Assembly: GCA_016278265.1 (NCBI GenBank)
Contig: JADQCE010000002.1
Location: forward strand, 558,001 to 622,000
Direction of reading: 5' to 3'
Source of the DNA: Halothiobacillus sp.
Lineage (GTDB): Bacteria > Pseudomonadota > Gammaproteobacteria > Halothiobacillales > Halothiobacillaceae
DNA length: 64,000 nt
The notes beneath the pieces are model-generated. The model searched no databases. It was not told the DNA's origin and saw nothing but the letters and a program-made list of their open reading frames with translations. How positions within the stretch are numbered: position 1 is the stretch's first letter; each line of letters starts with the position of its first letter. The translations under genes were made by a program, and so were the position numbers. Shown one piece after another: positions 27,943-55,733 of the stretch.

Positions 27943-28210
27943 AGGAAACTCTGCGCGGTTCGATGACGTCTCTGCGGGACCTCCAAGGGCTCAGATGCAA
28001 GGCGCAGTCCGCCGTGAAGGGCCGTCGCCCTTTACAAGGTCCGCAACGCCGCAGATGGGCCCTTGGAGGCCCGCCCGGACGGGGCTTGCGGGTTTGTCCG
28101 CACTCGGCGTTGCCGTCCCTCGACGGGCAACGAGCCCGTCTTCGGTCCGGCGCCTTGATTGCGAACAAACCCGCGAGCCAGAGATGCCATCGAACCGTGC
28201 AGAGTTTCCT
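27943..28210 (+). repeat. Large nested-hairpin inverted-repeat element, copy A (268 bp)
   Basis: Ends match over 32 bases with three differences: 27943 onward begins AGGAAACTCTGCGCGG, and the reverse complement from 28210 begins AGGAAACTCTGCACGG. Inside are two arms. Arm 1 pairs 27974-27990 with 28059-28074, enclosing a hairpin GTGAAGGGC/GCCCTTTAC (28014-28022, 28027-28035). Arm 2 pairs 28084-28102 with 28160-28178 (two mismatches), enclosing GACGGGC/GCCCGTC (28122-28140). Copies B and C are the same element in the opposite orientation. It is 69 bases upstream of nemA. No clear target duplication; no protein product recognised. Confidence 0.9.
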
Positions 28211-30383: not shown

Positions 30384-30459
30384 GTCCCCATCGTCTAGAG
30401 GCCTAGGACACCGCCCTTTCACGGCGGTAACAGGGGTTCGAATCCCCTTGGGGACGCCA
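30384..30459 (+). tRNA. tRNA-Glu (TTC), copy 1
   Basis: 76 bases with encoded CCA. Acceptor GTCCCCA pairs with TGGGGAC; anticodon TTC in CCCTTTCACG; T arm loop TTCGAAT. Confidence 0.97.
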
Positions 30460-30525
30460 TACGGTCGGGCAGTGCGTGTCACGCGTGCTGCCTTACTTGT
30501 TGGTCACGTGGGAACGTGGTCAACT

Positions 30526-30552: not shown

Positions 30553-30628
30553 GTCCCCATCGTCTAGAGGCCTAGGACACCGCCCTTTCACGGCGGTAAC
30601 AGGGGTTCAAATCCCCTTGGGGACGCCA
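30553..30628 (+). tRNA. tRNA-Glu (TTC), copy 2
   Basis: 76 bases with CCA. Identical to copy 1 except one T-loop base (TTCAAAT instead of TTCGAAT). Confidence 0.97.
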
Positions 30629-30632
30629 TACC

Positions 30633-45714: not shown

Positions 45715-45981
45715 GGGAAACTCTACACGATTCGATGGCATCTCTGTCTCGCGGGTTTGCCCGCAATCAAGGCGCCGGACCGAAGACGGGCTCATTGCCC
45801 GTCAAGGGAGGGCAACGCCGAGTGCGGGCAAACCCGCGAGACCCTCCGGGCGGGCCTCCACGGGCCCATCTGCGGCGTTTCAGTCCTTGTAAAGGGCGAC
45901 GGCCCTTCACAGCGGACTGCGCCTTGCATCTGGGCCCTTGGAGGTCCCGCAGAGACGTCATCGAATCGTGCAGAGTTTCCC
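45715..45981 (-). repeat. Large nested-hairpin inverted-repeat element, copy B (267 bp)
   Basis: Same family as copies A and C, reverse of A. Ends: GGGAAACTCTACACGATT from 45715 and, reading back from 45981, GGGAAACTCTGCACGATT. Arm 2 is a perfect 18-bp inverted repeat, CTCGCGGGTTTGCCCGCA (45748-45765) against 45823-45840, around hairpin GACGGGC/GCCCGTC. Arm 1 pairs 45850-45865 with 45934-45950. Sits between divergent nth and the membrane protein gene. Confidence 0.9.
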
Positions 45982-52361: not shown

Positions 52362-53972
52362 ATGTCGGGGAACGGCGCCTGGAATCGTGTTTTCGAATGG
52401 GGCTGGTTGCCACTGTTCCTGCTGGTGACGACCGTCGCGCTGCTGACGCGACCGCTGATGCCGGTCGACGAGACGCGCTACCTCGGCGTCGCCTGGGAGA
52501 TGTGGCAGTCGGGCTCGTGGGTCGTGCCGTTGCTCAACGGCGAGCCCTACAGTCACAAGCCGCCGCTGTTGTTCTGGCTGATCCACGCTGGTTGGGCGGT
52601 GTTCGGCGTCAACGACATCACGCCGCGGCTCGTTGCCCCGGCCTTCGCGCTGGGCAGCCTGTTCCTGATCCGCGCCGTTGCCCGTCGGTTGTTCCCGACT
52701 CGGCCGGTCATTGCCAGCCTGGCGCCCTGGATTCTCGCCGGGACGATCTACTGGCTGGGTTTCGCCACCATGACGATGTTCGATCAGCTGGTGGTCTTCT
52801 TCGTCCTGCTCGGCATTTTCGGCCTGCTTGAACTGGGACAGGGCCGTCGTCGCGGCTGGTTGTGGCTGTTTCTGGGGACGGCGCTGGGGGTGCTTGCCAA
52901 GGGGCCGTTCGCCCTGATCTACCTGGTGCCACCAACGGTTGTCGCCCCTTGGTGGGCCGGGGTGGGGGTGTCCTGGCGCTGGTTCTTCCAGGCCGGCGCG
53001 GTCGGGTTCCTCGGCTCCTGCATGGCGCTCGGTTGGGCGCTCTGGGCGGCCCAATTGGGTGGGCCCGCCTACGCCGAGGCAATACTCTGGGGGCAGATGG
53101 CCGGGCGGGCCGTGGACGCCTTCGATCATGCCCAGCCCATCTACTACTACGTGTGGATGCTGCCGCTGCTGTTTCTGCCGTGGACACTGATCCTGCCCGG
53201 TTTGCTGCGACGCGTGTGGAAGGGTCGCGGATCGGGCCAATCGGTCTGGCCCGACCCGCGGTTTGCCCGACTGATGCTGGCCTGGGTGCTGGTGCCGTTC
53301 GGTCTGTTGTCGCTCGCTTCGGGCAAGTTGCCGCACTATCTGCTGCCGGTGATCCCGGCGCTGTCACTCGCCACGGCGGCCTTGCTCGCCGGCCTGGTCG
53401 AATCGCCGCAGGCATTGCGCAGCCGGGCGGTGGCCGTCTTCTGGTGCGTGACGGGGCTGGTGCTCATCGTGCTGCCCTGGTCGACGAGTCACGGGCTGAC
53501 CGCCATGCTGCCGGGCGGGGTAAGTGCCGTGGGCGTGGCGTTGCTGCTCGGTGGCGCCTGGCTGTGGGTCGCTCGTCGAGGGCCGCGGCAGGTGGTGGCG
53601 GTGGCGCTGGCCACCGGTGTCGGAATGGTCCTGCTTCACCTGGCGTTGCTGCCGTTGCGCCCGGCCTTCGACTTCAAGTCGTTCGCGACGCGGGTCGGCG
53701 AGTTGCAGCACGGCGGCCATCCGATCGCGTTTGTGGGCAAGTATCGCGACGAGTACAACTTTTACGGCCGGCTGAGCCAGCCGGTGGTCGAGCTGGGCGG
53801 CGAGGCGGCCGCGAAGGAGTTCTGCTCCGCCTCGCCCGACGGTATCGTGGTGCGGCGCCTGCGGGGGGCGGTGCCGCCCGAGGCGCTCGTCTCGACCCAG
53901 TTTCGCAGCAAGCACGACGTGGCCCTGCCATGTTCCGCTCTGGCGTCATCGAATCGTACCGAGGCTCCTTAA
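52362..53972 (+). CDS. ArnT/GT83-like glycosyltransferase, membrane
   Basis: 536 residues from ATG 52362 after GGGAGG. GT-C type: eleven or so hydrophobic segments and the conserved luminal acidic motif PVDETRY at residues about 35-41, followed by PLLNGEPYSHKPPLLFWLIH and GVLAKGPFALIYLVPP. ArnT transfers L-Ara4N to lipid A; the substrate here is not established. The last eight codons (SSNRTEAP) and the stop are made by a solitary end of the repeat family, so the native C-terminus may have been replaced. Confidence 0.8.
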   Translation: MSGNGAWNRVFEWGWLPLFLLVTTVALLTRPLMPVDETRYLGVAWEMWQSGSWVVPLLNGEPYSHKPPLLFWLIHAGWAVFGVNDITPRLVAPAFALGSLFLIRAVARRLFPTRPVIASLAPWILAGTIYWLGFATMTMFDQLVVFFVLLGIFGLLELGQGRRRGWLWLFLGTALGVLAKGPFALIYLVPPTVVAPWWAGVGVSWRWFFQAGAVGFLGSCMALGWALWAAQLGGPAYAEAILWGQMAGRAVDAFDHAQPIYYYVWMLPLLFLPWTLILPGLLRRVWKGRGSGQSVWPDPRFARLMLAWVLVPFGLLSLASGKLPHYLLPVIPALSLATAALLAGLVESPQALRSRAVAVFWCVTGLVLIVLPWSTSHGLTAMLPGGVSAVGVALLLGGAWLWVARRGPRQVVAVALATGVGMVLLHLALLPLRPAFDFKSFATRVGELQHGGHPIAFVGKYRDEYNFYGRLSQPVVELGGEAAAKEFCSASPDGIVVRRLRGAVPPEALVSTQFRSKHDVALPCSALASSNRTEAP

Positions 53973-53994
53973 GGAACCTCGGTACGATTCGATG
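53947..53994. repeat. 48-bp near-perfect palindrome: solitary repeat end facing copy C
   Basis: 53947-53970 is the inverse of 53971-53994 with one mismatch (24-bp arms). The right arm is the left terminal repeat of copy C (AAGGAACCTCGG...). The left arm is therefore an extra, opposite terminal repeat, perhaps from a second, deleted copy. The TAA stop of the ArnT-like gene straddles the centre. Confidence 0.9.
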
Positions 53995-54243
53995 GCACCT
54001 CTGGCTCGCGGGTTTTTTTGTTCGCAATCAAGGCGCCGTGCTGAAGGTGGGCTCATTGCCCGGCGAGGGGCGGCAACACCGAGTGCGGGCAAACCCGCGA
54101 GCCCATACGGGCGGGCCGCCAAGGACCCATTTGCGGCGTTGCACTCCTTGTGAATGACCACCGCCATTCACGGCGGACTGCGCCTTGCAACTGGGCCCTT
54201 GGCGGCCCGCAGAGGGCACTATCGAATCGTACCGAGGTTCCTT
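53971..54243 (-). repeat. Large nested-hairpin inverted-repeat element, copy C (273 bp)
   Basis: Same orientation as B. Terminal repeats AAGGAACCTCGGTACGATTC are identical for 23 bases at both ends but differ from A and B at four or five sites, changed together at both ends. Arm 1 pairs 54111-54129 with 54192-54210 (one mismatch in 19) around GTGAATG/CATTCAC (54150-54171). Arm 2 (from 54003) is weaker because of a T7 run. Followed directly by TATAAT of the likely gltX promoter. Confidence 0.88.
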
Positions 54244-54249
54244 AACCTC

Positions 54250-54255
54250 TATAAT
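54250..54255 (+). promoter_or_regulatory. Probable -10 box for gltX
   Basis: TATAAT, seven bases after the end of repeat copy C. With a 17-base spacer the -35 (TCGTAC) would fall in the terminal repeat, so the element may supply part of this promoter. The -35 match is poor. Confidence 0.4.
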
Positions 54256-54329
54256 GTCCGCTTTGTCCCGGCTGGGGCGGGCCGCGCCCCGCCATCCGCG
54301 ACCACGTTTCCGCTGTTCCCGAGGTATCG

Positions 54330-55733
54330 ATGACCGTTCGCACCCGCTTCGCCCCGTCGCCCACCGGCTACCTGCACATCGGCGGCGCCCGTACGGCCCT
54401 GTTCAGTTACCTGTTCGCGCGCCGCCACGGCGGCGAGTTCGTGCTGCGCGTGGAAGACACCGACCGCGAACGGTCGAATCCCGAATCAGTCAACGCGATT
54501 CTCGAGGGCATGACCTGGCTGGGGCTGGACTACGACGAAGGTCCGTTCTACCAGACCGAGCGCATGGATCGTTACCGCGAGGTGATCGACCAGCTGCTCG
54601 TCGAGGACAAGGCCTACTACTGTTACGCCACCCGCGAGGAGCTCGACGCCCTGCGCGAGGCGCAGATGAAGCGTGGCGAGAAGCCGCGCTACGACCGCCG
54701 CTATCGCGATTTCACCGGCACGCCACCGGAAGGCGTCAAGCCGGTGGTGCGTTTCAAGAACCCGCTCGATGGGCTGGTGGTGGTCGAGGATGCCATCCGC
54801 GGCCGGGTCACGTTCCGCAACGACGAGCTCGACGACCTGATCATCGCGCGCGGCGACGGCACCCCGACCTACAACCTCACGGTGGTGGTCGATGACATGG
54901 ACATGCAGATCACGCATGTGGTGCGCGGTGACGATCATCTCAACAACACGCCACGCCAGATCAACCTCTACCGGGCGTTGGGTGTCGAACCGCCGGCGTT
55001 CGCACACCTGCCGATGATCCACGGCCCGGACGGGGCAAAGCTCTCCAAGCGCCACGGGGCGGTCAGCGTGGTGCAATACCGCCACGACGGCTTTTTGCCC
55101 GAGGCGTTACTTAATTACCTGGTACGCCTGGGCTGGTCGCACGGTGACGAGGAGATCTTCTCTCGCGCCGAGCTGGTGCAGCTGTTCGATCTCGTCGATG
55201 TCAATCATTCGGCCTCGAGCATCAACCCGGAAAAGCTGCGCTGGCTGAACCAGCACTACATGCGCGAGCTGCCGGTGGCCGACGTGGCCGCCGAACTGCG
55301 CTGGCACCTCGGCCACCTTGGCATCGACCCGGATGAGCAGGGGCCGAAGCCGACGGCGATCGTGCCGGCCTACGTCGATCGTGTGCACACGCTGGTCGAG
55401 ATGGCCGAGGAGGCCCAGCCGTACTACCAGGATGCCGTCGAACCCGATCCCAAGACGATGGAGAAGCTGGATGCGTCGGCGGCAATGGTGGTCGACGCGC
55501 TGCTCGTTGCTCTGGAGGACGAATCGGTTTGGGAGAGCAGCGAGATGCTGGAGTCGGCGGTCAAGGGCGTGGCGAAGACCCTCGATCTCAAACTCGGCAA
55601 GGTGGGGCCGGTGCTGCGACTGGCCCTGCTGGGGCACACGTCGTCGCCGAGTTTCGGGGTGATCCTCGAGTTGATGGGCCGCGTGCGCAGCCATCAGCGC
55701 CTCAACGCCTTCCGGGAACGGATCGGTTCGTGA
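54330..55733 (+). CDS. gltX: Glutamyl-tRNA synthetase
   Basis: 467 residues. Class I synthetase: PSPTGYLHIGGARTALF contains HIGH-type HIGG at 16-19, and KLSKR (KMSKS) is at 237-241. Length and a C-terminal anticodon-binding domain fit a standard bacterial enzyme. Two tRNA-Glu genes occur elsewhere in the window. Its stop is one base before the start of the following sensor gene. Confidence 0.96.
   Translation: MTVRTRFAPSPTGYLHIGGARTALFSYLFARRHGGEFVLRVEDTDRERSNPESVNAILEGMTWLGLDYDEGPFYQTERMDRYREVIDQLLVEDKAYYCYATREELDALREAQMKRGEKPRYDRRYRDFTGTPPEGVKPVVRFKNPLDGLVVVEDAIRGRVTFRNDELDDLIIARGDGTPTYNLTVVVDDMDMQITHVVRGDDHLNNTPRQINLYRALGVEPPAFAHLPMIHGPDGAKLSKRHGAVSVVQYRHDGFLPEALLNYLVRLGWSHGDEEIFSRAELVQLFDLVDVNHSASSINPEKLRWLNQHYMRELPVADVAAELRWHLGHLGIDPDEQGPKPTAIVPAYVDRVHTLVEMAEEAQPYYQDAVEPDPKTMEKLDASAAMVVDALLVALEDESVWESSEMLESAVKGVAKTLDLKLGKVGPVLRLALLGHTSSPSFGVILELMGRVRSHQRLNAFRERIGS

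Follow-up and report, generated by a model that had tools for sequence, protein, structure and literature searches.

Organization of the Locus

The window analyzed in this study is a 64,000-nucleotide stretch of DNA from Halothiobacillus sp., in which a gene for a GT-C glycosyltransferase is located upstream of gltX and is directly followed by an intact MITE-like element. The features relevant to this analysis are listed below.

52362–53972, + strand: GT-C glycosyltransferase gene (ArnT-like, PMT_2), based on translation, Pfam PF13231 and orthologs
53948–53963, + strand: 16-nt core of a solitary repeat end, ATCGAATCGTACCGAG, an exact inverted copy of the element's own terminal inverted repeat (TIR), 0 mismatches
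53964–53968, + strand: GCTCC, to which native GCCCC and TIR GTTCC fit equally with one mismatch each; codes for Ala-Pro as in genome G009
53969–53972, no strand: left TTAA, target-site duplication and native stop TAA; a single TTAA at the empty site in G009
53973–54241, + strand: intact MITE-like element of 269 bp, GGAA...TTCC ends, TTAA on both sides
53973–53993, + strand: left TIR, rare GGTACG variant
54221–54241, − strand: right TIR, same GGTACG variant
54242–54245, no strand: right TTAA, the other copy of the target duplication and native 5′ edge of the gltX leader
54250–54255, + strand: TATAAT, a −10-like hexamer inside conserved CCTCTATAATG, 5′ of gltX, based on conservation
54330–55733, + strand: gltX, glutamate–tRNA ligase (TIGR00464, 557 bits vs. 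a cut-off of 290)
45716–45980, + strand: second copy of the MITE family in the window
27944–28209, − strand: third copy of the MITE family in the window

The translated glycosyltransferase ends in ...CSALASSNRTEAP*, with the TAA at 53970–53972. Its match to the ArnT equivalog (NCBIfam NF009784) is only 115 bits, far below the cut-off of 567, which supports the name ArnT-like for the gene rather than ArnT. In several genomes of this genus, the segment CCTTAACCTCTATAATG (54240–54256) on the gltX side is conserved. The inserted MITE cuts it off from GCCTGCGAAAC, the native upstream sequence, of which G009 and G007 have conserved copies and G008 a nearly conserved one. The hexamer TATAAT within CCTCTATAATG is present in G009, G007, G008, and G005, with CCTCTATAATT in G010, and may be the −10 element of the gltX promoter; a promoter scan found no complete sigma-70 site around it. 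Elsewhere in the window, a near-identical 79-bp pair (30384–30462 and 30553–30631, 99%) looks like tandem tRNA genes.

The first-pass annotation of this DNA reported a 48-bp palindrome at 53947–53994, and we confirm it as a spacerless inverted repeat centered on the TTAA at 53969–53972. A repeat search gave arms at 53942–53970 and 53971–53999 (90%), the right of which recurs at 54221–54245 (100%), and the 20-mer TCGAATCGTACCGAGGTTCC was found at 53949 (1 mismatch), 53973 (− strand), and 54222, compared with 0 occurrences in shuffled sequences. The right half of the palindrome is the left end of the intact element.

A MITE Family With YTAR-Type Targets

The element is short, lacks a transposase gene, carries TIRs, and occurs in multiple copies, with a TTAA/TTAA duplication here, a single TTAA in G009, and YTAR-type targets across the family. 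Family members have a modal length of 266 bp, start with GGAA and end with TTCC (ends GGAANCTCTGCACG), and are flanked by 4-bp YTAR-type sequences. About 20–25 related copies are present in the whole genome. Of the 11 genomes searched in the genus, 10 carry the element, and it was found in 2 of the 4 genera searched within the Halothiobacillaceae, the nearest named record being a Halothiobacillaceae MAG; plasmid and phage collections gave no matches. Family statistics are based on fetched copies, 115 of which were analyzed as paired copies, and 30 of these have identical 4-bp flanks against a shuffled mean of 8.8. CTAG, TTAG, TTAA, and CTAA are frequent targets, with CCAG, CTTG, and CAAG also seen. 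A PiggyBac-like strict TTAA target was rejected because the family uses YTAR.

IS5 elements have GGAA ends, and the family resembles the IS5 group in these ends, in being short and non-autonomous, and in its 4-bp target duplication of the YTAR type, which is the IS5 target motif (PMC10359306). It differs in that no transposase with the MITE ends was found in the genus: a search for PF01609 (DDE_Tnp_1) across the 11 genomes returned a single match, which was rejected as the autonomous partner since its ends are unrelated. An IS5-type transposase is the putative mobilizing enzyme of the MITE.

Some members of the family are reduced. A solitary MITE end in another part of the genome (C10:869559) is a cut-down remnant without TTAA, and L142 (G000:C18:385643–385756) is an internally deleted derivative of ~108 bp that carries the rare GGTACG terminal repeat. 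The window copy itself has a T7 run at 54010–54016 arising from a 4-base insertion, with GGGTTTTTTTG where other copies have GGGTTTG. Apart from the concerted change of its hairpin arms among copies, described below, the element is largely ordinary.

The Empty Site and the Native Stop Codon

The closest ortholog, in G009 (protein identity 89%), has no MITE at the site. Its gene end GCGCCTGCGAAACAAGCCCCTTAA continues directly into CCTCTATAATG and gltX with one TTAA, so that the empty site consists of one CCCCTTAACCTCTATAATG. Identity to G009 is 547/600 in the upstream flank and 380/401 in the downstream flank, but only 19/31 in the last stretch. G007 and G008 are arranged like G009, with GCCTGCGAAAC in common (GCCTGCGGAAC in G008), and the stop codon is at the same place in all three, as TAA in G009 and G007 (CCTTAA) and TAG in G008 (CCTTAG). 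Therefore, the TAA is the native target site, and the proposal that the repeat supplied the stop codon is ruled out.

The suggestion of an insertion at the 3′ end of the gene, by contrast, agrees with the empty site in G009, and the C-terminus does differ from that of orthologs without the repeat (LASSNRTEAP* in the window, LAPAKQAP* in G009). Eight codons (SSNRTEAP) had been attributed to the repeat, of which about six (SSNRTE) are repeat-like, whereas the final AP matches G009. Native CCTGCGAAACAA (Pro-Ala-Lys-Gln) has been replaced by TCATCGAATCGTACCGAG (Ser-Ser-Asn-Arg-Thr-Glu), followed by Ala-Pro-stop as in G009.

In G005, an independent MITE right-end relict (L026) is located at the same TTAA between the ArnT-like gene and gltX, indicating that this target has been hit more than once.

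Sequence of the Solitary End

The 16-nt core of the solitary end occupies the place of a CTGCGAAAC-type sequence in G009, G007, and G008. In the best parse, the gene end is native up to 53947, followed by 16 nt of the inverted own TIR (53948–53963) and then native GCTCCTTAA, with a total of 5 mismatches, all of which fall within the native parts. Parses using the ends of other copies have a median of 8 mismatches, and random templates from the window give at least 9, so that a nearby reverse-complement template accounts for the cluster of changes. The repeat variant CCTCGGTACGA is absent from all other copies among the 115 paired, and GGTACG, found in 2 of the 115, recurs only in the short derivative L142. 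Just inside the arm, GCGTCATCG resembles the common MITE end ACGTCATCG, and native GCGCC explains it about equally well. Since the core matches the element's own rare TIR variant without a mismatch, these comparisons favor copying from the neighboring repeat by template switching. Counting against it are the resemblance of GCGTCATCG to the common MITE end and the left end of L132, which ties at a total of 5 mismatches; in addition, nearly the same sequence would be left by an older MITE of which only the end survives.

Covariation of the Arms Across Copies

Changes in one arm of the MITE are commonly accompanied by changes in the other. Non-consensus positions of the TIRs shared by the two arms number 272, as opposed to 148 confined to one arm, and the arms agree at 0.938, compared with 0.786 after shuffling. 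Pairing holds for 96.5% of cells in a 76-copy alignment, where double changes occur in 38 of 79 pairs; double-changed cells number 362, vs. 102 in shuffles and at most 56 with partners slid, although these counts are not probabilities, because kinship among the copies inflates shuffle-based significance. Covariation is seen in several of the inner stems as well as in the terminal one.

A selected transcript should tolerate GT over AC mismatches on one strand, whereas copying at the DNA level predicts equality of the strands. For pairs predicted on both strands, the mismatch counts are similar in magnitude (GT 46, AC 73), and the predicted folding energy is about the same for either strand (mean MFE −182.7 and −180.5). 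This equality points to arm copying at the DNA level rather than to RNA function, and template switching is a plausible cause of the stem covariation. Template switching is a documented route to arm copying (PMC8794818, PMC8604942, PMC7202029) and a described source of compensatory changes (PMC8794818).

Origin of the Solitary End

Taken together, these observations indicate that a non-autonomous, IS5-like MITE with YTAR-type targets integrated at the TTAA holding the native stop of the ArnT-like gene. As the empty site shows, duplication of the TTAA preserved the stop codon on the left and the leader of gltX on the right. The solitary end is most likely an inverted copy of the adjacent TIR made by template switching, and not the result of another transposition event. 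While the DNA was being replicated, the nascent strand would have switched to the adjacent inverted terminal repeat and copied ~16–20 nt backwards into the last codons (PAKQ to SSNRTE), so that a weak inverted match in the native sequence (CGAA, CCTTAA) became an almost perfect palindrome. The same process of arm copying may also have produced the stem covariation of the MITE and its equality on both strands. We give this combined reading, from the insertion to the covariation, a probability of roughly 50%.

Alternatively, the solitary end might be what remains of an earlier MITE insertion at this TTAA, a possibility that we regard as a serious competitor, if somewhat short of even odds. A second MITE would have inserted into the flanking target, or a tandem pair would have formed, and a deletion starting inside the gene and reaching the first copy's right end would have left ~25 nt that happened to keep the frame and the stop; the tandem pair having lost its inside, as proposed in the first-pass annotation, is a live rival within this scenario. 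The relict in G005 lends it weight, as the very same TTAA has been hit repeatedly, and an outward-facing end across a shared 4-bp target is found in three of 114 other paired copies (L126, L115, and L205). The orthologous site of L126 (in G006) lacks everything in G000, while L115 and L205, both in G002, derive from other subfamilies. However, the relict would have to share the GGTACG variant, which is rare (2 of 115 paired copies), and the deletion would have to end in frame (about 1 in 3) and within 25 nt of the MITE end. Further, no clear internal MITE sequence is left beyond the perfect TIR, unlike in L205. As a separate observation on L126, this compound lies between two CTAG sites, yet its inner junction is TTAA.

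Selection for an RNA device, in which the palindrome or the whole element would serve as an intrinsic terminator, a 3′-end hairpin of the glycosyltransferase mRNA, or a structured RNA, appears improbable. The very stable RNA hairpin noted earlier at the stop codon is indeed predicted, with 53940–54030 folding at −49.1 kcal/mol (shuffled mean −23.9 kcal/mol, z −7.8) and the stop codon in a UUAA loop; the whole element folds at −181.8 kcal/mol and covaries strongly. In a long transcript, pairing with the distal repeat is predicted to compete with the local hairpin. However, the two strands show about the same covariation and stability, unlike for a transcript-specific RNA, and RNA selection was rejected for want of a clear strand asymmetry. 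An intrinsic terminator requires a GC-rich stem followed by a T run, and a terminator scan called no site in 53940–54030; the T run at 54010–54016 does not follow the stem, and the insertion that created it is private to the window copy in the alignment. A terminator role therefore probably does not explain why the structure exists. Rfam matches were all far below their gathering scores, so that the MITE was not assigned to a known RNA family, and the miRNA names among these matches reflect generic hairpin similarity. It is more improbable still that the inverted copy arose as an artifact of library preparation or assembly. Fold-back chimeras create inverted copies, and the genome is a 23-contig draft, but the palindrome arms differ (GGCTCC vs. 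GGTTCC, GGCGTC vs. GGTGCC), the gene remains in frame, and other genomes have comparable solitary ends.

Comparison With Known Repeats

ERIC, Correia/NEMIS, YPAL, and the Coxiella QMITE are hairpin-forming bacterial MITEs. The family described here is likewise small, multi-copy, mostly intergenic, and folded into a hairpin along the whole element; it differs from them in its own sequence, its 266-bp branched fold, and its restriction, within this search, to 2 of the 4 genera of a single bacterial family. As in Rickettsia palindromic elements and codon-adding MITEs (PMC10969869), a palindromic repeat contributes residues to a protein, but here the contribution is only about six codons at the extreme C-terminus, with the MITE outside the ORF and the native stop kept. 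The proposed event also resembles quasipalindrome mutations, as described in PMC8794818 and PMC7202029, in which a cluster of changes produces a near-perfect inverted repeat beside an existing arm. What sets the present case apart is that the template would be the end of an inserted transposon and that the outcome is a rewritten C-terminus.

Implications

The change in the glycosyltransferase product itself is probably minor. The locus provides a clean case, with an empty-site ortholog, in which a small transposon hit a stop codon and the stop survived through the target duplication. A more general view, which is tentative and which we consider rather doubtful at present, is that template switching at replication forks both homogenizes the arms of these MITEs and writes MITE ends into neighboring genes; if so, a hairpin transposon would create codons at the C-terminus of a protein while itself staying outside the reading frame. 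With more than 100 copies, strongly covarying stems, and no clear strand preference, the family is a good natural dataset on the question of whether selection or template switching gives rise to compensatory changes in bacterial hairpin repeats.
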